Below, in pieces: positions 811 to 32,836 of a stretch of 33,168 bases of DNA. This stretch comes from a virus. The notes beneath the pieces were generated by a model, which did no database searches, was not told the DNA's origin, and saw nothing but the letters and a program-made list of their open reading frames with translations. The stretch is taken from IMG/VR virus record IMGVR_UViG_3300035523_000140, positions 1 through 33,168 of that record, one strand, 5' to 3'. The first letter of the stretch is position 1; every line of letters starts with the position of its first letter. Both the position numbers and the translations under genes were made by a program.

Positions 811-3800
811 TGAGCATGCCCACGTTACAGGGGAACTGGTTCAAGGCGCCGTCGGCCTCCGGCGCGAAAGGCACCGCGACGACGACGGGCTCGGCCCGCA
901 CGGCCCGCGGCTTGTGGTAGATCGCGCTCTGCGCCTGGCCACCGCCACCGGGTGCCAGAGGGACCGGCCTGCTATTCAGGCAGAACTGGTCGAAGGCCCA
1001 GAAGCAGAGAGAGCCGATCTCCGTTTGCTTCCACATCGAATAAGCTTGCAGGATGGGCGGGTCTGGCACACCATAGATTCCGGCCAGATACATGCACTCT
1101 CCGCCGGGGCGGCCAAGTTCCAAGGGGAACCGCATGGTCTGCTTCATCAACGAGGTGTTCTTCTGCCAAATGTCGAAATCGAAACCCTCACAGCGGAAGT
1201 ACTTCACGCCGTAGCTTGAGCTTTTCCACTGGTGGGGCAGGTTGACGTGCATGTTGAGGCGGCGGAAGCCCGGGTCGGGCGCGGGCTTGCCCTGGTTGGC
1301 GTCGAGCGGCCAAAGACACTCGAACACGGAGGACGGATGGTACCTGCGGACGTAGGCGATGACCTCGGCGCAGTATTCCCAGATCCGGTCGTGAAGGAAG
1401 TCGGCGGCCTGCTGATCACTGGCGGGGTCGTCGGTGTTCGCGAGGAAGTGATGCAGCGGGCGGCCGAATCGCGCAAGGAAATCCGCTTTGGTCCCGTCGT
1501 CATAGAAGGGCATTCCGGAGGAGTTCGGGAAGTACCACCACTGCGTCTCGCCGAATTGCAGGACGATCGGCAATCCGGCGGACGCCAGTTGATCCGCACA
1601 CTCCTTGTACATCTGTTTCAGATAGGATCGGACCCGCGCGCCGAAGTGCATCTGCGTGGATGGGACCGGCAGATCCACGGGAGCGCCGTCCCAGTAGCGC
1701 GCTGACATCGCGGTGGGCGGCCGGTAGCATTCCATCGAGAAGGCGAAGCTGGCACCGATGCCGGCCTGCCGGAACTGGCCGGCGAGATCGCGGATCCAGT
1801 TCCGCACGCCCTGCGTCATGACCGGCGAAATGCTGTCGATCATTTCCCAATCGCCCTCGGTACCCGGAATAGACAGTCCCGGCGTGCCCTGGGCAACGGA
1901 GAGGTTGCCGCTCGTGGTGATGGTAAAGGTATAGCCCGGCGCGCGAGATCGGATGCTGATCACGCCAGCGCTGCTGGTGCACCAGACGCCAGGGAACGTG
2001 ACGTTCAGCAGGGCTCGGAGATGTGCGGCGACGTCGGCATCCGAGAGCCCGGCGCCCGGAGCGAAGTACAGCGTCGTCCCGGAGACATTGATCCAGAACG
2101 GATCGTCCGGCAGCCAGGAGCCGACCTGAACCGTGCAATTCGGGTAGGTCGCCTCGACGCGCCGCCGCTTGTTGTTCCAGAAGACGCCCATGTAGACATC
2201 GGCGTGCCCGCGGAAGCCGAGCTTCTGGAGTTGCCACACGTGCCAGGTGGGAGGCTTCTTGTAGCCGTGGTCGGTATCGAAGTCGATTGCCAGGGAGACG
2301 CGATCGTAGACCTGGACGGGATCCGGCACGTCCTGCGGGACCAACGGCCAGAGGTAGTCGTAATAGAAGTAGTAACCGATGCTGGCCGGGTTCTTGTCGA
2401 ACAGAGCCGTGATCTGAACGGTGTGCGAGCCGGCCGCGATGCCGCCGCCGATCTTCTTCATCGCGGCCAGCCCATTGTAGTCGTTCAGATAGAGATCGAA
2501 GACCTGGGCCGTACCACCGTCGATGACGACCTCGATCTTGCCGGCGCTGGTCCCGAGCCAGGTGCCGACATAGAGATCGTGGACGGTGCTGCGCTGGTAG
2601 GTGACAGTCATCGCGCGCACGTCATTGGCGGCCGACGGCGCACAGCGCCTAGCATGGCCGCCGCTCCACCATCCTGCGCCGTATGGAGCCGCTTCCCAGA
2701 AACCTGTGTACGTGGTGCACTTCGACTCCTCCAAACGGTCGTTCTCGCTCGGGCCTCCAACCTTCAAGGCCGTGGGACCGGTCAGATTGATGTTGGAGAT
2801 CGACACCTGCCACTCCACATCCGATCGCGTGCCGGTGATGGTGGAGATCCGCTGTACGGGGGTTCCTTGGCCCCAAGCCTGGGGAGTCGACGAGTCCTCG
2901 CCGCGGCGCACCAGGACACGGTGATACCAGCCGCTCGGCACGGCCGGATCGGGCATCACGAAGCCAAGGTTCGCCAGGCAGGTGATCCGCTCTTCGGACG
3001 CTGCATTGCCGACATAGTACTTGGTGTTTGCCGACATGGCGGCAGCGTTAACGATCTGCCACTCTTCCTCTGCGGCGGCCGGAGAAGCCGCCACACTGTG
3101 AAGCAGAAGCCCACCGTTGGCCAGGCCAAACTCGACGTCTTCGAATCGCGGCGCAAACGTCAGGTGGACCTTGACGATATCCGTCGCCGGTACGGGAACC
3201 AATGAAATCCGATCCCCATTAAGGAACCCGGTCAACTGCCCGAAGGGGAATGTGAACCTGTAGGCGCGGTCGTTGCCAGATCCCTGGACGGAGGTCGTGA
3301 GAACGGTATTCCCGATCTCGTCTCCGCCGCCATTGATGGCCACGATCTGATTCCCGTCATTGACCGACAGGCGCACTGGCATCCCGTTCGCGTCGCGTCC
3401 GTACTGCCCGAGCGCCGCGCCAAGGGTGACCTTCATTTCGAATGCCGTGTTGGTCGTCGAGAAGTCCTGCGCTGCTGCGAGCCCCAGAGAGGTCGGTTGT
3501 TCGCCATAGTCGGGAGTTGTGCTGATGATCATCCGGTCCTTCAGCACACTTCCGAAGTGGCGTGCCCGGGGCAGGACCCGGCACATGATCGTGTACTGTT
3601 CACCGAAGTGATGCTTTTTGAAGCTGGCAGTGAAGGTTCCGGCACCCACCGAAATCACCTTCACGACCTCATCGTTGGCTGACCCGATATCCACAGCCAC
3701 ATAATCACCAGCACGGATCTCTGCCGACGACGCCACTTTCACCGTCTTGACGCCCGGCTCCATTTCCCGAGAGAGCGTCGCTGGGCCGGACCCATCGGAA

Positions 3801-4642
3801 CTGCCCACTTGCACCGGGCCGTTCACGCCGGCTTCCAGGCTGACCGTGACGACATTGCCGCTCGCCGTACAATCGACGAGATAGCTGGAGATTCCGACCA
3901 TCGTAGCCAGCCGCGAAGCGATTTCGGCAGAGTCTGTCGCTCCGCTCTCGAGGACGCCCGCGCCGATGTCATTCACCCAAAGGTCGTGCCAGCGCGTCGG
4001 ATCACCCGTCCACCAGATTGCCTGCTCGCAGGATGTCTGGCAGGGCGTCCCGACGTTGCTGAGTAGGCGTGTCTCGAGATTGCATTCCGCAACCGCATCT
4101 ACAGAAGAGCACGACCATCGAGCGCCCATGAAGTGGACGTGCGCCGTATCGGTGAGTGCGGGAGTTGGCTGGCCGACCAGGAGCGCATCCAACGCTTCGG
4201 CCTTCCGGTCAGCGAGCCTGATTTTGAAGGAGCCGGGCTGGCAGCCGCCGGAGACGATCTGCGCGTAGATCATCAACCGGACTTCATAGACGTTTCCATC
4301 GGTGGTTGTGATCGTCAACTGGTCCCAACCCACCGAGGCGTAGCGCACGCAGTCCGGGCGGACATTGCCTTCCTCACCATTCACCGGCAGCACCTGCATG
4401 TCGAATTGCAGGGTGACGCCGGAGAGGTCCGTCACCGGCAACGGCTTCACGCGCAGGTGGTTGAAGTAATCGTATGCGCTGAAGAGCTGGACGTTGGCGA
4501 AGTCCTCTGCCGCTTGAAAGATGCCGGAGATCTGGAACCCGGTCTCCGTCGCATCGTGGATCGTAGTGGTCGCGGCTTTCCCGCTGAACCCCTGCAGTTG
4601 GACAGTCCTGCGGGGATCGAACATGTGAATTGGCTCAGGCAT
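803..4642 (-). CDS. Large tail protein with TIM-barrel/glycosidase-like C-terminal half
   Basis: A 1279-residue virion protein whose ATG directly abuts the TAG stop of the tail-tip gene upstream. The first ~750 residues are beta-rich and look like stacked small domains. From about residue 770 to 1260 the sequence resembles an alpha/beta TIM barrel of the glycoside hydrolase type: acidic residues occur at plausible strand ends in SMECYRPP (~971), QFGETQWWYF (~1032) and FECLWPL (~1108), with many Trp and Tyr typical of sugar clefts. TIM-barrel domains are known in tail proteins of gene transfer agents and some siphoviruses. I infer a tail-tip or tail-surface component that may bind or cleave host polysaccharide. 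The catalytic glutamates are not proven and the barrel could be purely structural. Some homologous families may be labelled non-contractile tail sheath, which I cannot check. Confidence 0.65.
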   Translation of the reverse strand: MPEPIHMFDPRRTVQLQGFSGKAATTTIHDATETGFQISGIFQAAEDFANVQLFSAYDYFNHLRVKPLPVTDLSGVTLQFDMQVLPVNGEEGNVRPDCVRYASVGWDQLTITTTDGNVYEVRLMIYAQIVSGGCQPGSFKIRLADRKAEALDALLVGQPTPALTDTAHVHFMGARWSCSSVDAVAECNLETRLLSNVGTPCQTSCEQAIWWTGDPTRWHDLWVNDIGAGVLESGATDSAEIASRLATMVGISSYLVDCTASGNVVTVSLEAGVNGPVQVGSSDGSGPATLSREMEPGVKTVKVASSAEIRAGDYVAVDIGSANDEVVKVISVGAGTFTASFKKHHFGEQYTIMCRVLPRARHFGSVLKDRMIISTTPDYGEQPTSLGLAAAQDFSTTNTAFEMKVTLGAALGQYGRDANGMPVRLSVNDGNQIVAINGGGDEIGNTVLTTSVQGSGNDRAYRFTFPFGQLTGFLNGDRISLVPVPATDIVKVHLTFAPRFEDVEFGLANGGLLLHSVAASPAAAEEEWQIVNAAAMSANTKYYVGNAASEERITCLANLGFVMPDPAVPSGWYHRVLVRRGEDSSTPQAWGQGTPVQRISTITGTRSDVEWQVSISNINLTGPTALKVGGPSENDRLEESKCTTYTGFWEAAPYGAGWWSGGHARRCAPSAANDVRAMTVTYQRSTVHDLYVGTWLGTSAGKIEVVIDGGTAQVFDLYLNDYNGLAAMKKIGGGIAAGSHTVQITALFDKNPASIGYYFYYDYLWPLVPQDVPDPVQVYDRVSLAIDFDTDHGYKKPPTWHVWQLQKLGFRGHADVYMGVFWNNKRRRVEATYPNCTVQVGSWLPDDPFWINVSGTTLYFAPGAGLSDADVAAHLRALLNVTFPGVWCTSSAGVISIRSRAPGYTFTITTSGNLSVAQGTPGLSIPGTEGDWEMIDSISPVMTQGVRNWIRDLAGQFRQAGIGASFAFSMECYRPPTAMSARYWDGAPVDLPVPSTQMHFGARVRSYLKQMYKECADQLASAGLPIVLQFGETQWWYFPNSSGMPFYDDGTKADFLARFGRPLHHFLANTDDPASDQQAADFLHDRIWEYCAEVIAYVRRYHPSSVFECLWPLDANQGKPAPDPGFRRLNMHVNLPHQWKSSSYGVKYFRCEGFDFDIWQKNTSLMKQTMRFPLELGRPGGECMYLAGIYGVPDPPILQAYSMWKQTEIGSLCFWAFDQFCLNSRPVPLAPGGGGQAQSAIYHKPRAVRAEPVVVAVPFAPEADGALNQFPCNVGMLNG

Positions 4643-20298: not shown

Positions 20299-21060
20299 TT
20301 AGGCGGTGTGGACGCGGTAGGCGATCTTGACGGACATGACCGTGTCCGCGGCCGCGTTGCCGCCATACTCGCCGGCGCCCGTATTGTGCAGCACCAGTGC
20401 CTTGTTGACCGATCCCGTGTTGACCACGATCGCATCGATCTTCGGCAGCGCGTTCGTGATGATGTTCGCCGCCTGGTCGATGAAGCCGGTCGCTTCGATC
20501 GCCTGAGAGACGATGGCGCCGCTTCCGTCCGTGTACCGGATGGCCATATTAGCGGCACTCTCCGAAAGCACGTTCGTGCCGTAAGTGAGAACCAACACAG
20601 CGCTCACGAACTCGAGCACCTTGGTCGCGCCGGGAGCCGCCACCAGGGTCACAGGTGCGGCGCGCAGGGCTTTGATTTGGGCGTTGGTCAGGGCGACCAC
20701 CGCATACTTCAGAATCGAGCCGTCCAGCGGCGCGTTGTAGCCGCTCGAGAGACGGCAGTGGACCGTCGCGCTGGGGTTGCCCGCAGCTTCGACGGCGACC
20801 GCCACAGGAATCCCTGTGCTGGTCTTGTTGAGCTCCTTCGCAGAGTCGTCCCAGTACAGAACGTCTCCCGCGCCGATCGCCAGCGCGGAGGTCTTCTTCA
20901 GCCAGAATTCGCCTTCGGTCATTAGTGCGACCGAGGCATTGAGTACCGCGTCAAACGAGGCCACGCCGAACAGCGAGCCCACCAGGCAACCATCCCCGGA
21001 GAGCACTGCGTAAGGCGCGGCGAGGGTGATCGTATCACCCGACTTGATGAAATTGGTCAT
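20299..21060 (-). CDS. Capsid decoration (DUF2190-like) protein with extra C-terminal domain
   Basis: A 253-residue protein. Residues 1-110 match the DUF2190/capsid cement pattern: MTNFIKSGDTITLAAPYAVLSGDGCLVGSLFGVAS, then WLKKTSALAIGAGDVLYWDD and a closing strand ending VHCRLS. Residues ~115-253 form a second beta-rich domain (ALTNAQIKALRAAPVTLVAAPGA, then strands ending SVKIAYRV) that I recall as a separate small virion protein in other phages, so this looks like a fusion. It would bind the outer capsid surface and stabilise it. The ribosome site GGAG lies 8 bases before the ATG. It is separated from the capsid gene by a 76-base gap that holds a hairpin. Confidence 0.75.
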   Translation of the reverse strand: MTNFIKSGDTITLAAPYAVLSGDGCLVGSLFGVASFDAVLNASVALMTEGEFWLKKTSALAIGAGDVLYWDDSAKELNKTSTGIPVAVAVEAAGNPSATVHCRLSSGYNAPLDGSILKYAVVALTNAQIKALRAAPVTLVAAPGATKVLEFVSAVLVLTYGTNVLSESAANMAIRYTDGSGAIVSQAIEATGFIDQAANIITNALPKIDAIVVNTGSVNKALVLHNTGAGEYGGNAAADTVMSVKIAYRVHTA

Positions 21061-21136: not shown

Positions 21137-23140
21137 CTACGCGGTGTTCTTTTGCAGTCCGCGGTGATCGATCGCCGCCGCCGCGAAATCCAAACGCGCC
21201 TTGATCTCGATGCCATCAACTTCAAATCCTTGGCGGGTTTCGATGTAGACGCCCTGCTGCCCCTCGAGGTAGCAGTATTCAATCGTGTCGATGGTGCTCG
21301 GGTCCGCCGCCGTGTACCAGTTGGTGTCGCCGACGCTGGCCACCGCATCGAGGCGCGGCTCGACGATCGGCACCATCACGCGCACAAACGCCGGGATGTC
21401 GGCGGACGAAGCGGTTGCCGCGAGGTTGACCGGGTTGGTCAACTGGACCGCGATGCCCTCCAATGCGGCCGGCACGATCAGATATTTCGGTATTAGATTC
21501 AGGATGGTGCCCTTGGGCGCCGTCTGCTTGCGCATCAGCTTGCGGGCCGCCGTGATGTTGGCAACTGCCGTCAGACCGTTGGATGTGGACAGGTTCTTGT
21601 GGGTCGCGTGGAACAGCGCGACGTTGTCAGCCATCGCCGCATTCCCGGTGATCACGTTCCACACTGTGTCGCTCTCCAGCGTGGCCGCCGCGATGCCGAG
21701 ACCGAACGGGATTCGAGTGAGCGCCTGCAGGTCGTCGTTGATCACCACCTTGCGGGTGATCGGAACGATGCCACCCCAGGTGGCCAGCGAGTACGTCTCC
21801 TTCGAGTCGCTGAGATAGATCCGGACGAACTCCCCGGCCTCGTTCGTCTGCTGCAGCGCGGCAATGTCGCTCAACTGAACACGGTTCACCGGTTTGAAGT
21901 CCGACGCCGACACCTGGCGGCAGAACGGCGTGAAGGTTCGCGGCGCAGCCTCATACGCTTGGCGCAGAGTCTTGTTGGCGACGTTGGCCAGGATGTTGGG
22001 GAAGTCGCTGGTCGTCATGGCGCCGCCGACGTCGAAATACTCCGACGCGCCAAACCGGCCCTGCAGCGCGACGCGGGCGATGTCGTTGCGGCTCATCCCG
22101 CGAGTCTTCACGCCCCCTGCATCCAGGCAGGTGCGCGCCATTTCGAGCAGCGTCATGCCAGCGTAGTCGCGGCCCTTCTCCTGCACTTCGCGCGGCGCGT
22201 TGGGTGTCCCGCGCAGGAACAGGGCGGCCTCCATGCACTCGCGCCGCTTGTCCGTCGCGTCTTCGATGGTCGTGACCGTGCGGCCGGAATCGGCCTGCCG
22301 CGAATCTGGCCGATGCTGCTGTTCGATCGCAGCCAGGCTGTCGAGCAGTGCTGCGCTGAACTGATCGGGCGTGTTGCCGTTGTCGATGTACGGTTGCGAG
22401 AACGTGGTGCCGAGTTTCTCCAGGAACGGGGTCGCACGCCGATTAATCTCGGCGACACGCACGCGCTCGTTTTTGATTGCCTCGTCGCGCGCCGCGGCGA
22501 GCTGCGTTTCATTTACCAGGGCCGTTTCGCCCGTGACCTGTGTCGTTGCTTCCATAACAGGGGTCTCCTTGATTGGGCTGACTGCCCGTGATCCATCCGC
22601 CAACTGCTCTGCGGACAAGAACGTCGTGCCCGCATCCGCCGGGATCGGCACGAGTGAAATTTCGAACGGCTCCCAGTCGGTCGCCAGGATCTCCCGGCGC
22701 TTCTGGCCGTCCGGTGTGATATCCCGCTTCGCATGAATCGCGACACCGGGGCTGAGATTGGAGAAGATTCCGCTGCGCACGTTCTCCCACAGCGGAGTGC
22801 AATCTTCGTTCTGCGAGAACTGCAACGAGGCTTTCCCCAGGGGGCCATCTGCCCACGCCTTCAGCACAACGCCGACCTGGTTGTGCATGTCGCAGGATCC
22901 GTGGTTGTTAAGCACGGCCGCGCGGCTATTCAGCCGGTTCAGCCGGCAGCCAGCCATGTCGAGCGTCAGACTGTACTCTTCGCCGGTGCGCCAGTCGATC
23001 CGTACCACGGGCGCGCCCGTATACCAGATGCAGTCGATGGTCCGCTGCTTCCCATCCGCGCTGCTGAACGTTGCCGGAACGGCGAACCGCTCGACTTGCT
23101 GGCCAGCCGCTTCCTGCTCGCTGGATTCAGTTGGGTCCAT
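21137..23140 (-). CDS. Prohead protease-major capsid protein fusion
   Basis: A 667-residue fusion. Residues ~15-175 are a prohead protease with catalytic-type residues His80 (LNNHG), Ser130 (NLSPG) and Glu160 (PFEISLVPIPAD), as in the HK97 protease family. Residues ~196-330 are helical and charged, fitting an internal scaffold (delta-domain-like) segment. Residues ~350-667 are an HK97-fold major capsid protein: RTFTPFCRQVSASDFKPV, GIVPITRKVVINDD, then a TLESDTVWNVITGN loop and a P-loop-like IPKYLIVP strand. In lambda, protease (C), scaffold (Nu3) and capsid (E) are separate genes; fusions like this are known in Mu-like and related phages. The protease should cut itself off during maturation. 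A strong ribosome site sits inside the gene before Met196. The main start has AAGGAG 7 bases upstream. Confidence 0.88.
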   Translation of the reverse strand: MDPTESSEQEAAGQQVERFAVPATFSSADGKQRTIDCIWYTGAPVVRIDWRTGEEYSLTLDMAGCRLNRLNSRAAVLNNHGSCDMHNQVGVVLKAWADGPLGKASLQFSQNEDCTPLWENVRSGIFSNLSPGVAIHAKRDITPDGQKRREILATDWEPFEISLVPIPADAGTTFLSAEQLADGSRAVSPIKETPVMEATTQVTGETALVNETQLAAARDEAIKNERVRVAEINRRATPFLEKLGTTFSQPYIDNGNTPDQFSAALLDSLAAIEQQHRPDSRQADSGRTVTTIEDATDKRRECMEAALFLRGTPNAPREVQEKGRDYAGMTLLEMARTCLDAGGVKTRGMSRNDIARVALQGRFGASEYFDVGGAMTTSDFPNILANVANKTLRQAYEAAPRTFTPFCRQVSASDFKPVNRVQLSDIAALQQTNEAGEFVRIYLSDSKETYSLATWGGIVPITRKVVINDDLQALTRIPFGLGIAAATLESDTVWNVITGNAAMADNVALFHATHKNLSTSNGLTAVANITAARKLMRKQTAPKGTILNLIPKYLIVPAALEGIAVQLTNPVNLAATASSADIPAFVRVMVPIVEPRLDAVASVGDTNWYTAADPSTIDTIEYCYLEGQQGVYIETRQGFEVDGIEIKARLDFAAAAIDHRGLQKNTA
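22553..22570 (-). promoter_or_regulatory. Internal ribosome binding site and start in the capsid fusion gene
   Basis: On the minus strand AAGGAG (22570-22565) is followed after 9 bases by an in-frame ATG (22555-22553) encoding Met196. Starting here would yield a 472-residue protein with scaffold and capsid parts but no protease. This resembles the nested C/Nu3 arrangement of lambda and would provide capsid subunits in excess over protease. Confidence 0.6.
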
Positions 23141-23152
23141 CGTTATCTCCTT

Positions 23153-24700
23153 TTACGATTGATATGTCCGGGTGAACTCGAATCGATTCTTCGATTCCTT
23201 CGCCGGTGGCGTATCGGTCCCCGCCGCTGTGGCAACGCCGGTCTGTTCCACGCCCTTGTCGTTCACCTTGCGCGGGTCGCAATCCAGAATGAGGCCGAGA
23301 CTGTCCATGAGATCGTTAAGTCGCTTGATCTCCAGGAGCTGTTTCTCCGGGTCGTAGCCGTTCTGTGAGATCGCCTCGGACAGCGTCAGTGTGCCTGTCC
23401 TGATGCGCTTCAATTCCGACAGCGCATCCTTGAGCGGATCGACGCTTTCGAACTTCTGTGCCGTCCACTGGACTCCGTAATTCGCCTCCGGGACGCGGCC
23501 GATGGCGACCAGCACGTCGATAAACCTCCGCCATGTGGGGCGACAGAACATCGGGATCAGCGTCAACCAGCGGAACGCCTCGATCGCGTTGCGGAAGCAG
23601 AGCATGCCCGCGCGATACGAGGAGTAGTTGACGTTCGAGAGGTCGCCGGACAGCAACTCATACGGCACATCCACACCCGCGCCCACGCCCTGCAACTCCG
23701 CCATCAGGTATTCTCGGTAACCCCCGGTGGCAGCCGGAGAGTTGAACTTGATGTCCTCGCCCGGCTTCAGATACTCGATCATGCCGGGGTACATCCGCTC
23801 GAGTGTGTTACCGGTTCTTGGATCGGTCGACCGCGAGCCGATCGGCAGACCACCTGCGCCCTCCGGCCGGGTCACGATCCCCGCCAGGCACGCTTCCGTC
23901 TTCTTTCGCAGACGTTCCGCGTCCCTGTAGTCGTCGAGGTCGCGGAGCGCCAGCATCACCGGCGCCAGCCACGGAACACCGCGAACCTGTCCAGGCCGCA
24001 GGATGCGGTAGGTGTGCATGACTTGGTCGGCTGGAACCGGCCTGCTCTGTAGCCCACCCCGCGAGCTCGCTGTGTACAATCCGCCCGGGTGATCGTCGTA
24101 GAGCCAGTACGATTCCCGCTGCCCGATCAGATTGAACTGCACGCCCATCACGATCGAGCCGGTCGCAGTGCCCGTCGTGCGCGAGGCGTCGAGGTAGTCT
24201 CCCTCCAGCGCCTGGATCTGCAACGGCACACGCAACTTGTCTTTCTGGAGGCGGCTACGAAACCGGATGAGCCCATCGCCGCTCTCTGCCGTGGTCCGGA
24301 CGACCAAAGACTGCATGCCGTAGAAATCCAACTGCCCGCCCGGATCGCAGTTCTCCGCGAAGTGGGGCCACTCCGCATCGATGATCTTGTCGAGGGCGGC
24401 GTCGCCGGTCTTGGCCTGCGGCACGATGCCGGTACCGACCGTATTCGACACCAACTCGTTGACCGCCTTGCTCGCATAGGGATTGTTGCGCAGCAGATCG
24501 CGCGACCGGTTCCGCAACGCGACGAGCCCGGCGCCCACCTCTGTGTTCACATCGCCGGCACCGGACACCCATCCATCGGTTCGCCGCCCGGACTTTGCGC
24601 CATCATAGGCGAGCGTCACCTGCATCGCCGAGCGGTATTGCGCCCTGCGGTATGCAGCCTCTGGCGCGAACAACGCAATCAGTCTGTCGAGTGCGTTCAA
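23153..24700 (-). CDS. Portal protein, lambda gpB family
   Basis: A 515-residue protein. The start is a TTG that immediately follows the TAA of the gpW gene, with a weak CAGGGA site just upstream; no in-frame ATG gives a better N-terminus. The sequence is typical of the lambda-family portal: RNRSRDLLRNNPYASKAVNELVSNTVGTGI near residues 60-95, EGDYLDASRT near 175, and LRPGQVRGVPWLAPVMLALRDLDDYRDAE near 240-265, followed by a helical wing and crown. It forms the dodecameric ring at one vertex through which DNA enters and to which gpW and the connector attach. Gene order between gpW and the protease-capsid gene equals lambda W-B-C. Confidence 0.92.
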   Translation of the reverse strand: MNALDRLIALFAPEAAYRRAQYRSAMQVTLAYDGAKSGRRTDGWVSGAGDVNTEVGAGLVALRNRSRDLLRNNPYASKAVNELVSNTVGTGIVPQAKTGDAALDKIIDAEWPHFAENCDPGGQLDFYGMQSLVVRTTAESGDGLIRFRSRLQKDKLRVPLQIQALEGDYLDASRTTGTATGSIVMGVQFNLIGQRESYWLYDDHPGGLYTASSRGGLQSRPVPADQVMHTYRILRPGQVRGVPWLAPVMLALRDLDDYRDAERLRKKTEACLAGIVTRPEGAGGLPIGSRSTDPRTGNTLERMYPGMIEYLKPGEDIKFNSPAATGGYREYLMAELQGVGAGVDVPYELLSGDLSNVNYSSYRAGMLCFRNAIEAFRWLTLIPMFCRPTWRRFIDVLVAIGRVPEANYGVQWTAQKFESVDPLKDALSELKRIRTGTLTLSEAISQNGYDPEKQLLEIKRLNDLMDSLGLILDCDPRKVNDKGVEQTGVATAAGTDTPPAKESKNRFEFTRTYQS

Positions 24701-24910
24701 TTAGTCCCTGCTGTGACTGGCCAGAGTGAAGCCTGCCGCCGCCGTGGTCTGCCGAGCGGAAAGCTCTGTCTCCGCATCACGGAGCGCCTTATCCACATCC
24801 GCAAAGCTGTTGTACTCAACAGCGCGGTCGGTGTACTGGACGCGCTTCACGCCGGAGTACTTGGCGCGCTTCAGTGAATCGATCGCCGCCTGCAGTTCTG
24901 TGATTGTCAA
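24701..24910 (-). CDS. Head completion protein gpW-like (TTG start)
   Basis: A 69-residue protein of almost exactly lambda gpW length (68). I chose the TTG at 24910 because GGGGAGGAG lies 6 bases upstream and TTGA overlaps the terminase TGA by 4 bases. An in-frame ATG at 24937 would add nine residues that encode that ribosome site, and it has no site of its own. The sequence TITELQAAIDSLKRAKYSGVKRVQYTDRAVEYNSFADVDKALRDAE has the two helices and beta hairpin of gpW. It binds the portal after packaging and prepares the head for the connector. Codon use and position between large terminase and portal fit. Confidence 0.85.
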   Translation of the reverse strand: MTITELQAAIDSLKRAKYSGVKRVQYTDRAVEYNSFADVDKALRDAETELSARQTTAAAGFTLASHSRD

Positions 24911-26835
24911 AACCAACTCCTCCCCTTCGGCATCCATTCGGAGCGATCGCCGAAGTACGAATCGTTGTCGCCGCGACGAGGCGCCCTGTCCTGCGCGCCA
25001 GCACCTTCCAGTTCCGCCCAGTCATCATCGGAGAGCGAGTCGATACCGCAAATGGCCGCTGCCGCGCGGCAAAGAACCGCGAGGTCAAGTGGCTCGTTTC
25101 TGATCGACTTGTCGGGTACCCACTCCACCTTGCCGCTCGACCGGATGATCCGCGACTCGGAGCAGAGCCCGCGATAGAAGTCCTGGTCCTTGTAGGCGTA
25201 GTGCTGGAACCCGGGCGGGTACGTGCCGTCGTCGGGCAGCACGATCCGCAGCCAATCGTAGAACTCCTGCTTCGCCCAGTGGGTGCCAATGTGCCAGATC
25301 CGGACGTTTTGCCGCTTGCGCGCAGCGTCCGTACTCGACACCGACGCGATCAGTTTCAGGAAGTTCGGCGTGCCCTTCGTCGGCACCACGGTGCGCGGCG
25401 CATAGATCCTGTCGCCTGCCGGGCCGTGAGCCGGTTGCGGATGGCGCGCGGCGAAATCGTACACCATCTGCGGCCTGAATCCCGTGTCAATCGCCATCGC
25501 CATGATCGGCATGGTCCTGCCCGACTCGTGCGGCCAGTCGGTCGCCAGCAGTTCTTCCAACTCCTGCCAGACTTCCGGCGAGGACGTTTTCAGCGCCTGC
25601 CCGGCCTGATCGGGCACCTGAATCACCCGGTAGTCCACCGACCAGGACTCCTTACCCCGCCCATATGCCTTGATCTCCACTTCGAGCCGGTCGTCCTGCA
25701 CGTCGACGCCAGCCACAAGCAGCGACGCCTTCGCCGGCACGATCCCGAGGGCGTAATCCTCACGCCGCAGGTAGACCTTTTCCCAGTCGGGCGCCGACCC
25801 ACGTTCTGTCCAGAGTTCCGCCAGCACGGTGTTCAGAAACGCCTTGAGCGTCTCCGTCGAGTGCTTGGCCACCAGGAACTCCGCAGCGATCGTTCCCCAG
25901 GAGCGTTTCGGAGAAATGAGCTGGGACACACGAAACCCAGGAATCGGCGATCCTGGATTCTGCGCACGGTACTCGCCGCGCTCCACCATCCAAGACTTCT
26001 GGTGGTGCGGGATCTGCTGGTGACAGTTTTCGCAAAGGTATGCGGCATTTTCCGGCTCGCCTTCCGGCCACACAACTCCGCCGCCGGTGCCGTCGCTGAA
26101 CACCAGGATCTGAAAGTGGTTGCACAACGGGCACGGAACGAAATACTCGCGCTGGTCGCTCGTGTTCCAGGCCTTCTGAATACGACTCTCGCCGTCGATG
26201 GTCGGCGTCGAGCACATGACGATCTTCTTGTTGTGCTCGAACTCGCCGGTTCGCTGCATCGCCAGCGACACAGGATCGCCCTCCGATCCCGCGCTCGTGG
26301 GATACCTGTCCACCTCGTCCAGCAACAGGTACCGAATCGGACGCATGGCCAGGCCGGACGGCGAGATGGCGCCGGTGAATGTGATGTGCCCGGAACCGTT
26401 GGCGAACACCTTGTGCATCGCCGTGTTGTTTGAATCCCGCGACTTCACCGCAGCGAGCTTCCCGCGGAGGGCCGGCGAGTGCCGGAACAACGGCGCGACG
26501 CGATCCTTTGAGAGCGCCTTGGCGTCTTCCGATCTCGGCTCCACCGCCAGCGTCGGGCCCGGATCCACGTCCGCGATGTAGCCCAGGAAGTTCACCATCA
26601 CGCTCGTCTTGAGCATCTGCGCAGCGGACATCAACACGACCTGCTTGCACGGATGCGACGAGCTCAGGACATCCATCGGCTCTCGCTGGTAGGGTCGCGT
26701 ATGCCATTGGCCCCGTTCCGCCGATCCGGAGCCGGTAAGCACCACATTCTCGTCGGCCCAGTGCGACACGGAGATGTCCCGTGGTGGCAGCAGGGCCTCC
26801 GCTCCAACCTGATACATCGAGAATGCTGTGCTCAT
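24907..26835 (-). CDS. Terminase large subunit, GpA-like
   Basis: A 642-residue protein, essentially lambda gpA length (641). The start is the ATG at 26835, which shares one base with the TGA of the small subunit (TGATG). An N-terminal ATPase domain shows a Walker A-like segment SAAQMLKTS (70-78), a RSEDAKALSKDRVAP motif and Walker B RYLLLDEVDRYP (168-179). A zinc-ribbon pair follows (CPLCNHFQ, then CENCHQQ). The nuclease region lies in the C-terminal half (including VAGVDVQDDRLEVEI). It cuts concatemeric DNA at cos and pumps it through the portal. Acidic residues in VDVQDD and AIDTGF could be metal ligands by analogy with other terminase nucleases. Confidence 0.92.
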   Translation of the reverse strand: MSTAFSMYQVGAEALLPPRDISVSHWADENVVLTGSGSAERGQWHTRPYQREPMDVLSSSHPCKQVVLMSAAQMLKTSVMVNFLGYIADVDPGPTLAVEPRSEDAKALSKDRVAPLFRHSPALRGKLAAVKSRDSNNTAMHKVFANGSGHITFTGAISPSGLAMRPIRYLLLDEVDRYPTSAGSEGDPVSLAMQRTGEFEHNKKIVMCSTPTIDGESRIQKAWNTSDQREYFVPCPLCNHFQILVFSDGTGGGVVWPEGEPENAAYLCENCHQQIPHHQKSWMVERGEYRAQNPGSPIPGFRVSQLISPKRSWGTIAAEFLVAKHSTETLKAFLNTVLAELWTERGSAPDWEKVYLRREDYALGIVPAKASLLVAGVDVQDDRLEVEIKAYGRGKESWSVDYRVIQVPDQAGQALKTSSPEVWQELEELLATDWPHESGRTMPIMAMAIDTGFRPQMVYDFAARHPQPAHGPAGDRIYAPRTVVPTKGTPNFLKLIASVSSTDAARKRQNVRIWHIGTHWAKQEFYDWLRIVLPDDGTYPPGFQHYAYKDQDFYRGLCSESRIIRSSGKVEWVPDKSIRNEPLDLAVLCRAAAAICGIDSLSDDDWAELEGAGAQDRAPRRGDNDSYFGDRSEWMPKGRSWF

Positions 26836-27386
26836 CAGTAACCGGCGTCCGAGATGGCTTTCGCCATCTTCCGGCGCAGCGCATTCGTTTCGCCTGCGAG
26901 TATCCGGTGAATCTCTGCTTCGCTCTTCGCGGCTGCGACCAGCGGTGCCACACGATCCGGGTAGGCCGACAGCGCATCGCCGACGATCGAGGACCAATGC
27001 GCCGCATACTCACCGGCCTTGGTGGCCTGGATCAGTTTGCCGGCGCGCTCCTCATACTCCAACTGCGCCGTCTTCGCCTTGAACGTCTCTGTCACCGCGC
27101 GAGCCCGCAGATAAGCAGAAACAGGATCGCTCGATGCTTCGGGCGGACCCGGCATGCCCGAACCGCCTCGCGGTGGGGTGCGTGCACTGAGCGGCACCGC
27201 CTGCGGTCTGGTTGCCTGGTGCAGAGTCTTGCCCGCGAAAGTGTTCCTTTCCCACTCCTGGTTGGCCCGCTCGGGATCGATGGTCCCGTCCGCGTTCGGC
27301 GTGATCCGCTTGCTCGCAATCGCCTTCCGAACCGCGCCCTCGGTACAGCCACGGGCCCGTGCATATGCTCGAATTGAGACGCCCAT
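26835..27386 (-). CDS. Terminase small subunit, Nu1-like
   Basis: A 183-residue protein close to lambda gpNu1 (181). The N-terminal 45 residues form a winged-helix-like unit (SIRAYARARGCTEGAVRKAIASKRI then TIDPERANQEW) for DNA site binding. The rest is helical (YLRARAVTETFKAKTAQLEYEERAG), typical of the part that contacts the large subunit. It recognises the packaging site, which in lambda lies just upstream of this gene; the 27387-27863 non-coding stretch is therefore a candidate. No ribosome site is visible before the ATG at 27386, so an alternative start or leaderless expression should be considered. Confidence 0.85.
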   Translation of the reverse strand: MGVSIRAYARARGCTEGAVRKAIASKRITPNADGTIDPERANQEWERNTFAGKTLHQATRPQAVPLSARTPPRGGSGMPGPPEASSDPVSAYLRARAVTETFKAKTAQLEYEERAGKLIQATKAGEYAAHWSSIVGDALSAYPDRVAPLVAAAKSEAEIHRILAGETNALRRKMAKAISDAGY

Positions 27387-29914: not shown

Positions 29915-31180
29915 TCAAACTGGCACGTTCAAACAGCCATCGACGCTCTTGTTCGTCTTAACTTCGTCGAATGTCCGGCCGCTGGATTCGAGCGTCGCGG
30001 CCTTCCCGCTGAACTCCTGGAACCGCCGGATGATGACATCGCAGTACGTCGGTTCCAACTCCACCAAGCGCGCCTGGCGGCCGGACCTCTCGCACGCAAT
30101 CAGCGTTGTGCCAGACCCGCCGAACGGATCAAGCACCGTATCCCGGCCCTTGCTGCTGTTCCTGATTGCCCGCTCGACCAGCTCGACCGGCTTCATCGTC
30201 GGATGCAGGTCGTTGGTGTGGGGCTTCTTGATGAACCACACATCGCCCTGGTCGCGGGCGCCGCACCAAAAGTGATCCGTGCCTTCCTTCCAGCCGTACA
30301 GGATCGGTTCGTACTGGCGCTGGTAGTCGGACCGCCCCAACGTGAAAGTGTTTTTCGCCCAGACTACGAACGTGGACCAGTGCCCGCCCGCCTCGCGGAA
30401 CACACGCTGCAGCGTGTGGATCTCTGACGAGGACATGCAGACGTAGATCGCGCCCTTGGCGACGGTGAGCATATTCACGCAGGCGTCGCGCAGGAACTGC
30501 TCGAAGTCGCCGCCGAGGTTATCGTTTGCGATCGTCCGTTTGGCGCCGGGGCGCTTATCCGCCCCATAGTTCACGTTGTACGGCGGATCGCAAAAGACCA
30601 TATCGGCCAACCCTCCATCGAGGACCTTTTCGACGTCGGTCATCACCGTTGCATCGCCACACAGGAGCCTGTGTTCGCCAAGAATCCACACGTCACCCGG
30701 CACCGTGACTGCGTCGATTTCCGTCTCCGGAACCGCGTCCGGATCGGTCAGACCCTCGTTCGCTCCATCCGGCTCTGCCAGGATCACCGCGAGTTCCTCG
30801 TCGGTGAAGCCGACCAGGTCGAGGTTGAACGCGTCTCCCTTTAGCGACTCGAGCTCGACGCGCAGCATGTCATCGTTCCAGCCCGCGTTCAATGCGATTT
30901 GATTGTCAGCTAGAACCAGCGCACGCCGCTGTGTCTCTGAGAGGTGGCCCAGGACAATTACCGGCACCACCAGCATTTTCAACTTGCGGGCGGCCAGGAG
31001 CCGCGCGTGGCCGGCGAAGATCACGCCGTCAGCGCCAACCAAAATCGGATTTGTCCAGCCAAACTCGACTATGCTAGCGGCGACCTGGGCGATCTGCTCG
31101 TCGCTGTGAGTGCGCGCATTTCGGACGTACGGAATGAGCCGTTCGATGGGCCACTGCTCGATTTGGAGATCGATTCTCAA
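29915..31180 (-). CDS. ParB-domain / DNA adenine methyltransferase fusion (TTG start)
   Basis: A 421-residue protein. The TTG at 31180 is chosen because TTGA overlaps the TGA of the upstream methyltransferase by 4 bases; no in-frame ATG exists near the N-terminus of the domain. Residues ~20-110 are a ParB N-terminal domain (NARTHSDEQIAQVAASIVEFGW, GHARLLAARK at 57-66). The C-terminal half is a beta-class methyltransferase with motif IV DPPY (198-201) before motif I DPFGGSGTT (351-359) and a HPTMKPVEL motif (326-334). DPPY points to N6-adenine specificity. The role is likely modification of phage or host DNA, for protection from restriction. The pairing with a ParB-like domain is common in phage methyltransferases. 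Confidence 0.88.
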   Translation of the reverse strand: MRIDLQIEQWPIERLIPYVRNARTHSDEQIAQVAASIVEFGWTNPILVGADGVIFAGHARLLAARKLKMLVVPVIVLGHLSETQRRALVLADNQIALNAGWNDDMLRVELESLKGDAFNLDLVGFTDEELAVILAEPDGANEGLTDPDAVPETEIDAVTVPGDVWILGEHRLLCGDATVMTDVEKVLDGGLADMVFCDPPYNVNYGADKRPGAKRTIANDNLGGDFEQFLRDACVNMLTVAKGAIYVCMSSSEIHTLQRVFREAGGHWSTFVVWAKNTFTLGRSDYQRQYEPILYGWKEGTDHFWCGARDQGDVWFIKKPHTNDLHPTMKPVELVERAIRNSSKGRDTVLDPFGGSGTTLIACERSGRQARLVELEPTYCDVIIRRFQEFSGKAATLESSGRTFDEVKTNKSVDGCLNVPV

Positions 31181-32619
31181 GAGGCCACCCTTTGTTCCGG
31201 ATCGACTCCGCGCTGCGCAGCCACGTCCGCGAACGAATCGCCGTTGGACTCCAGCATCACGTCGAGACCCAGGCTCATCATGCGCCGCACAATCACGTCG
31301 CAGTACCCCGGTGAGATCTCGCAACCGTAGCCGGCCCGACCGAGCACATGCGCCGCCGCCAAGGTTGTGCCGCTGCCCATGAACGGATCGAAAACCACGT
31401 CGCCTGCGTCGGAGAACGCCTTCACGAAGAACTCCACCAGCGCGCGCGGGAACGGAGCGGAGTGCGATCCCTGACTCGACTCGCTCTTGACCTCGATCAC
31501 GTTGCTCGGGCGCGCCAGACCGGTGTGCCGGCCCGCACGGTCCTCGGCTCCCGGTTGTCCGGCAGCCCGCCCGCGCGGTCCAGTACCAAGCAGTCCGCTC
31601 CCGGAAGTAGCCTTCGGATTGTCAGGCGAATAGTCGAAGCAGTCGTCTGAGGCGTGACTCACAGCCTCCGCACAGAACTTGATCGCGGGTTGCCGGCAGA
31701 AGTGGAATACCGGTTCCCAGGCGTTCTTGAAGCGGTTCGGCCAACCGCCAGGCACGCCGTTATCTGTCTTGCGCCAGCAGAACTGATCCACAAACCGCCA
31801 GCCCCACTTGCGCCGGTGGGTAATGACCAGATCCATCACGTACAGGTCTCGTTCCCCTTCGTCCGCGTGCTCCTTGATGTTCAGGAAGAAGGAGCCGTCC
31901 GGCGCCAACACCAACTCGACGCCTTCGGCCACAGCCCGAAACCACTCCACGTACTCGTCGGGCTGAATCGGCTTAAAGCCACTGGTGGCGTCGTACTCGC
32001 GCTGCGTGGCGTACGGCGGCGACGTGATCGCCACGTTAGCACTGGCGCCTGCCATCAACTTCTCAACGGTGGCCTGGTCCCGGCAGTCGCCGCAGATCAG
32101 TCGGTGCGGCCCGATCAACCACACGTCCCCGGCAATCGTAACCGGCTGCGCAGGAGGTTCGGGAACCGCTTCCTCCTCGACGTGCGCGGCACCCTCCGGC
32201 TTGTCGACGGCCAGCAGTGCGACGAGCTCCTCGTCGGAGAACCCAACCACGGTCAGGTCGAAGCCGTCCACCTCGAGCGACGCTATCTCCTCGCGGAGCA
32301 TTACCTCATCCCACCCGGCGTTGAGCGCGAGCTTGTTGTCGGCGATCACTAGGGCCCGGCGCTGCGTCGGCGTCAGGTGGGCCAGCGCGATCACCGGCAC
32401 CTCATCCATGCCCAACTTGAGAGCAGCGAGGAGACGGGCATGGCCCGCGATCACTCCGCCGCCGGAGTCCACTAGGATCGGAGACGTCCACCCGAACTCC
32501 TTGATGCTGGCCGCCACCTGTGCCACCTGCTCGTCGGAATGCGTCCGTGAGTTTCGGGCGCATCGCTGCAGGCTGCCTACAGGTCGCAATTCGATCCGGA
32601 GCTGGGAGAGATCGATCAT
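31177..32619 (-). CDS. ParB-domain / DNA methyltransferase fusion with SPPY motif
   Basis: A 480-residue paralog of the next gene, encoded just upstream. ParB N-terminal domain at ~20-115 (NSRTHSDEQVAQVAASIKEFGW, GHARLLAALK at 59-68). Methyltransferase motifs: IV is TSPPY (SPPY 200-203) and I is FDPFMGSGTT (410-419), so also beta-class order. SPPY is more usual for N4-cytosine enzymes, whereas its neighbour has DPPY, so they may mark different bases. A low-complexity loop of Gly, Ala and Arg at about 340-370 is not shared. The start ATG at 32619 follows the stop of a small ORF after 4 bases, and no ribosome site is visible. No cognate restriction enzyme is adjacent, suggesting anti-restriction protection. 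Confidence 0.88.
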   Translation of the reverse strand: MIDLSQLRIELRPVGSLQRCARNSRTHSDEQVAQVAASIKEFGWTSPILVDSGGGVIAGHARLLAALKLGMDEVPVIALAHLTPTQRRALVIADNKLALNAGWDEVMLREEIASLEVDGFDLTVVGFSDEELVALLAVDKPEGAAHVEEEAVPEPPAQPVTIAGDVWLIGPHRLICGDCRDQATVEKLMAGASANVAITSPPYATQREYDATSGFKPIQPDEYVEWFRAVAEGVELVLAPDGSFFLNIKEHADEGERDLYVMDLVITHRRKWGWRFVDQFCWRKTDNGVPGGWPNRFKNAWEPVFHFCRQPAIKFCAEAVSHASDDCFDYSPDNPKATSGSGLLGTGPRGRAAGQPGAEDRAGRHTGLARPSNVIEVKSESSQGSHSAPFPRALVEFFVKAFSDAGDVVFDPFMGSGTTLAAAHVLGRAGYGCEISPGYCDVIVRRMMSLGLDVMLESNGDSFADVAAQRGVDPEQRVAS

Positions 32620-32623
32620 TGGG

Positions 32624-32836
32624 TTACGAAGAAGTGCAAGAACTGGGCGGCTGAAGCATTCGTCCCTGCACCTGCCGGATTTGGCCACGCATTCGCCCCC
32701 ACATGGGCTGTGTCGCGCTGTCCGCCTCCGGATTGGGTGGTTGGCCTATCGGCCGCCCGAGGCGTGTCTGCCTGCCGCCGAACGCACCGCGGACGCGAGC
32801 GAGGTACCGGCCACCGATCTGTCTTCGACGTTTCAT
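32624..32836 (-). CDS. Small basic ORF of uncertain status
   Basis: A 70-residue very Arg-rich frame (MKRRRQIGGRYLARVRGAFGGRQ). Its ATGA overlaps the TGA of the upstream gene by 4 bases and its TAA lies 4 bases before the methyltransferase ATG, so it fits the operon spacing exactly. Another frame, 32616-32873, also overlaps the methyltransferase start by 4 bases and reads more randomly, so I prefer this one. No family is recognised. It could be a small DNA-binding protein or a spacer. Confidence 0.5.
   Translation of the reverse strand: MKRRRQIGGRYLARVRGAFGGRQTRLGRPIGQPPNPEADSATQPMWGRMRGQIRQVQGRMLQPPSSCTSS

Follow-up and report, generated by a model that had tools for sequence, protein, structure and literature searches.

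The window, i.e., the whole stretch of 33,168 bases analysed here, is an IMG/VR virus contig of this length and contains on its minus strand a gene of 667 codons (23140 to 21137; the strand had not been given in the initial annotation), which encodes a fusion of prohead protease, scaffold and major capsid protein (21137-23140, 667 aa). The protein matches the profile NF045541 above its cut-off (637.4 bits vs. 525; residues 29-666), as well as phrog_4523, 'major head and protease protein' (E 2e-186), and the capsid family PF25209 (residues 338-665, E 4e-52). The profile of ClpP-like fusions, NF045540, stays below its cut-off (337.5 bits vs. 475) and covers residues 198-666 only, and a CLP_protease domain was not found by Pfam in the window protein. 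Concerning the capsid part, it resembles shells of the HK97 fold (Foldseek E-values of about 1e-8 to 1e-7 and TM scores to the target of about 0.5-0.6) and is, by profile and fold, an HK97-fold major capsid protein. A sequence search of the PDB gave no match. As regards the protease domain, PF04586 (Peptidase_S78) matches 13 of the 31 aligned relatives, though not the window protein, to which TIGR01543 gives a weak match (15 bits, E 0.02, cut-off 59), and the domain appears to be S78-like.

The start codon of the fusion gene (ATG, 23140-23138) is preceded at a distance of 6 nt by the ribosome-binding site AAGGAG (23147-23152). Upstream of the gene and likewise on the minus strand, genes for a lambda-type portal (23153-24700) and for a GpA-type terminase (24907-26997) are situated, and a gene for a cement (decoration) protein (20299-21060, minus strand) lies downstream of it. 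In the latter, PF09956 covers residues 6-104 of 253, and around 150 C-terminal residues are outside the match.

Domain layout and the internal start site

In an AlphaFold2 model built with 31 relatives, the protease domain (about residues 15-166, 22643-23098; pLDDT mostly 80-93) is rich in beta structure; it is followed by a disordered linker (about residues 167-208, 22517-22642; pLDDT below 50), which differs in both length and sequence among homologs, and then by a long scaffold helix (residues 206-243) and the capsid region. Two residues, H80 and S130, do not vary among the 31 sequences and constitute, by analogy, a candidate catalytic pair.

The junction between the protease and the scaffold-capsid part reads on the minus strand, from 5' to 3', ATC AAGGAG ACCCCTGTT ATG GAA GCA. 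As described in the initial annotation, a Shine-Dalgarno (SD) motif AAGGAG (22570-22565; anti-SD duplex -8.5 kcal/mol) is followed after a spacer of 9 nt by an in-frame ATG (22555-22553), which encodes Met196 and lies within the predicted disordered linker between protease and scaffold helix. The reading frame agrees also with the second product that had been proposed, namely one of 472 of the 667 residues (21137-22555), predicted to consist of the scaffold helix and the capsid domain and to be without H80 and S130, which are both encoded upstream of the internal start.

Within the scanned interior of the gene, Met196 is the only in-frame ATG or GTG with a five-base SD core 3-11 nt upstream. 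Taken by itself, however, the site of the window carries little evidential weight, since codons for the peptide KETPVM readily produce it: 84% of the synonymous codon permutations of the window sequence remake such a site. A case made from the window alone was thus rejected.

Conservation of the junction site

Altogether, 121 homologous loci were fetched from bacterial genomes and viral contigs. At an identity of 56% or more, all 45 homologs that cover the junction retain an in-frame ATG or GTG with an SD core 3-12 nt ahead of it, some having GTG for ATG and some GAGGAG for AAGGAG; the loss of the start codon or ribosome site in close homologs, which the initial annotation had named as speaking against its proposal, was not encountered among them.

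Among 42 representatives with less than 85% mutual identity, a junction site (an in-frame ATG or GTG with a five-base SD core 3-11 nt ahead of it) is present in 34, with about 2.6 sites expected. This corresponds to 34 sites in 1805 junction codons vs. 36 in the other 25213 codons of these genes, i.e., to densities of 0.0188 and 0.0014 per codon, a 13-fold difference. Under a synonymous null, 18.3 +/- 2.3 genes carried the site, and the maximum in 200 trials was 25. In 32 of 38 representatives (2.9 expected), the strongest of all initiation sites within the gene falls at the junction. Where the junction contains a dipeptide of K or E followed by E, it is written with the codons AAG or GAG plus GAG in 40 of 49 cases (21.8 expected), and at six loci (L060, L066, L067, L068, L070 and L112) the ATG is lost and a GTG is found 6 nt after the same AAGGAG or GAGGAG. 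The RNA at the internal start is on average less folded than 83% of the gene positions (p 9e-10) and, after GC matching, less folded than 65% of them (p 5e-5), whereby these p-values overstate independence, as the representatives within each family are related, and are indicative only. Some distant members (L032, L039 and Vibrio phage p42) exhibit no good site within the strict limits, and in p42 no site is convincing.

A second S78 lineage, found via the protein of Rhodobacter phage RcKemmy and comprising 31 representatives, extends the conservation that the initial annotation had suggested examining in related fusions: each of the 31 has an ATG or GTG at its junction, and 26 carry an SD core in the main column of the alignment. 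Here the SD is found in all three codon phases, encoding KG, RG, KEA, RS, KD or RT, and the junction peptides vary widely (SKGKT, NQTRTT, HRKEAD, QQRSLA, RTEDDD), with SD and ATG staying in place. The occurrence in all three phases, for which peptide selection cannot account, indicates that selection acts on the nucleotides, and among the sequence comparisons this lineage provides the clearest evidence for it.

In some close homologs, a blind scan that allowed TTG as start codon picked GTGAAGGCGGAGCGG-TTG in the scaffold helix. This candidate was rejected, as it depends on a TTG start and is situated within a conserved helix; the homologs concerned also retain the ATG or GTG site at the junction. 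Five loci with frameshifts or N runs (L017, L021, L023, L030 and L033) were not used as evidence for gene splitting. At a further locus (L078, 1470-3815), an in-frame stop is situated inside the protease domain, and the internal SD and ATG and the scaffold-capsid part are still open; this might reflect either a real loss of the protease or a sequence error.

Other fusions and relatives with split genes

The fusions of NF045541 and PHROG 4523, e.g., of RcKemmy and of Stenotrophomonas phage S1, possess the same domain order as the window gene and are homologous to it throughout. They are annotated as single products, and an internal start is absent from the annotation entries consulted. The same arrangement, at varying strength, is found in the S78-type fusions of RcKemmy, Stenotrophomonas S1, Bordetella PY223, Synechococcus MinM1, Paenibacillus Pd_22F, Microcystis yong2, LPPA33 and VP882, and in relatives from Shewanella and Vibrio no more than GGGGA is present.

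The ClpP-type fusions of NF045540 (MD8, LESphi2, mEp460) share the capsid family PF25209 and likewise exhibit an in-frame junction ATG after AGGAG or GAGGA, whereas their protease is a CLP_protease (PF00574) and not S78-like as in the window. The site is present in 15 of 16 LESphi2-like and in all 12 mEp460-like sequences. In the mEp460 type, it has the form GAGGA-10 nt-ATG and is the strongest interior site in none of six, such that its support is weak; in addition, the peptide (E/K)EF..MP is conserved together with the site in the ClpP-type fusions. For both reasons, a junction start in these fusions is suggestive, on weaker evidence than in the S78 types. Concerning the other end of the mEp460 gene (locus L122, 1544-3502), the frame is open upstream of the annotated start, and an SD-preceded GTG or ATG is found 5' of it in 12 of 12 representatives, which suggests that the protease start has been annotated too far downstream.

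In other relatives, the two parts are separate genes. Faecalibacterium phage FP_Epona, Dulem virus 34 and the contig MT835543 possess a protease gene followed by a separate scaffold-capsid gene, and the match of the separate protease to the S78 profile was confirmed in FP_Epona and Dulem virus 34. Such neighbouring genes are located at 1678-3814 (L132) and 1206-3320 (L379), as well as in L381, among the gut-phage relatives. Their capsid gene begins in the same inter-domain region as the internal start of the fusions and has a strong SD of its own, AGGAGGT or GAGGAGGC, before its ATG. Since the split relatives carry this SD, the site within the fusions is best read, from the sequence comparison, as the ribosome-binding site of the capsid gene, either retained through the fusion or recreated after it. 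In a contig of an alphaproteobacterial metagenome-assembled genome (L028, 855-3118), the protease and capsid parts do not share a reading frame, the split being at the same junction, and AGGAG precedes the likely capsid start at 1637.

Probable nested products and alternative explanations

The internal site, its conservation at the nucleotide level, its place between the domains, the reduced RNA structure and the relatives with split genes are observed, and from them we infer the production of two proteins, their ratio, their co-assembly and a purpose in protease stoichiometry. Initiation at 23140 would give the full protease-scaffold-capsid protein of 667 aa, and independent initiation at the internal AAGGAG and ATG (22570-22553) the scaffold-capsid protein of 472 aa. 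Both could co-assemble via their shared scaffold and capsid parts, such that the procapsid would bear only some tethered proteases, which at maturation would cut away the scaffold and themselves. We consider it highly probable that one gene gives rise in this way to two nested, in-frame, co-assembling products. The gene, judged from its sequence, probably makes a protease-free capsid protein also, and the interpretation of the initial annotation is supported overall.

It might be argued that the motif is a feature of the protein, i.e., a conserved linker peptide K-E-x-P-x-M that serves, for example, as a self-cleavage site of the protease, with SD and ATG being incidental. The conservation of KE(K/T)PxM in the window's own family and that of (E/K)EF..MP in the ClpP-type fusions agree with this; however, the peptides of the RcKemmy-like lineage change around an SD that occurs in every codon phase, the M of the window's family can be replaced by a V encoded by GTG at a 6-nt spacing, and the choice among synonymous codons is biased to AAGGAG or GAGGAG. 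For the S78 types, the peptide reading is largely refuted already, and we regard it as very unlikely. The site might alternatively be a relic, namely the ribosome-binding site of a once separate capsid gene that is of historical origin and of little present use, as relatives with a separate capsid gene and a strong SD at its start do exist. Nevertheless, it is kept at about 28-69% identity despite the changes of the linker, the exchange of ATG and GTG and the shifts in SD phase; this upkeep points to continued selection and not to decay, and we judge a relic to be very improbable.

A further possibility is that both starts work and the full-length protein dominates, the short form being minor and the site tuning assembly instead of protease stoichiometry. 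A canonical AAGGAG, with a spacing of 6 nt, precedes the upstream start as well, and the full-length protein may thus be translated efficiently. This explanation differs from that of two nested products only in the ratio and the purpose, and that hundreds of proteases per capsid would be unwanted is itself presumed. We consider a dominant full-length form unlikely.

In phage lambda, an in-frame internal start inside the protease gene C leads to a protease-free product, Nu3, which is the scaffold only, the capsid protein E being encoded by a separate gene. The parallel drawn by the initial annotation to these nested genes is apt as far as the architecture is concerned, for the window gene, too, possesses an in-frame start, which is conserved and preceded by an SD, at the boundary between protease and scaffold; it does not extend to the short product, which in the window is predicted to contain the capsid domain in addition to the scaffold. 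PMC8508860 cites Shaw and Murialdo 1980 for C/Nu3 and gives gp4 protease and gp5 capsid of HK97 as two separate genes. The HK97 pair has an S78-type protease, which that of the window appears to resemble, and shares with the window gene a capsid with an N-terminal scaffold (delta) domain.

The protease-capsid fusion family (NF045541) is already known; searches of the open-access literature yielded no paper describing an internal start in fusions of this kind. Fusions are described as one gene for Microbacterium cluster EE and small-genome phages (PMC7302621), for the Arthrobacter clusters AM, AU and AN (PMC5513430) and for MD8 (PMC8508860), and the passages of these three papers that deal with the fusions do not mention an internal start. 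If one gene made one protein, each of the several hundred subunits of a shell would carry a protease. A conserved second start, if true, would resolve this puzzle, would correct the annotation of a large fusion family and would offer a simple test system, in which a single codon change separates both products; a gene fusion could then retain two expression levels. It also seems somewhat probable that protease-capsid fusions in tailed phages generally have a conserved start at the joint, kept or acquired with the unrelated S78 and ClpP proteases, such that they would be two-product nested genes giving capsids in which subunits with a tethered protease are mixed with protease-free ones.

Elsewhere on the minus strand of the window, two overlapping neighbouring open reading frames (29915-31324 and 31177-32688) each match ParB-like and DNA methyltransferase families (phrog_498) and are apparently a tandem pair of paralogs.
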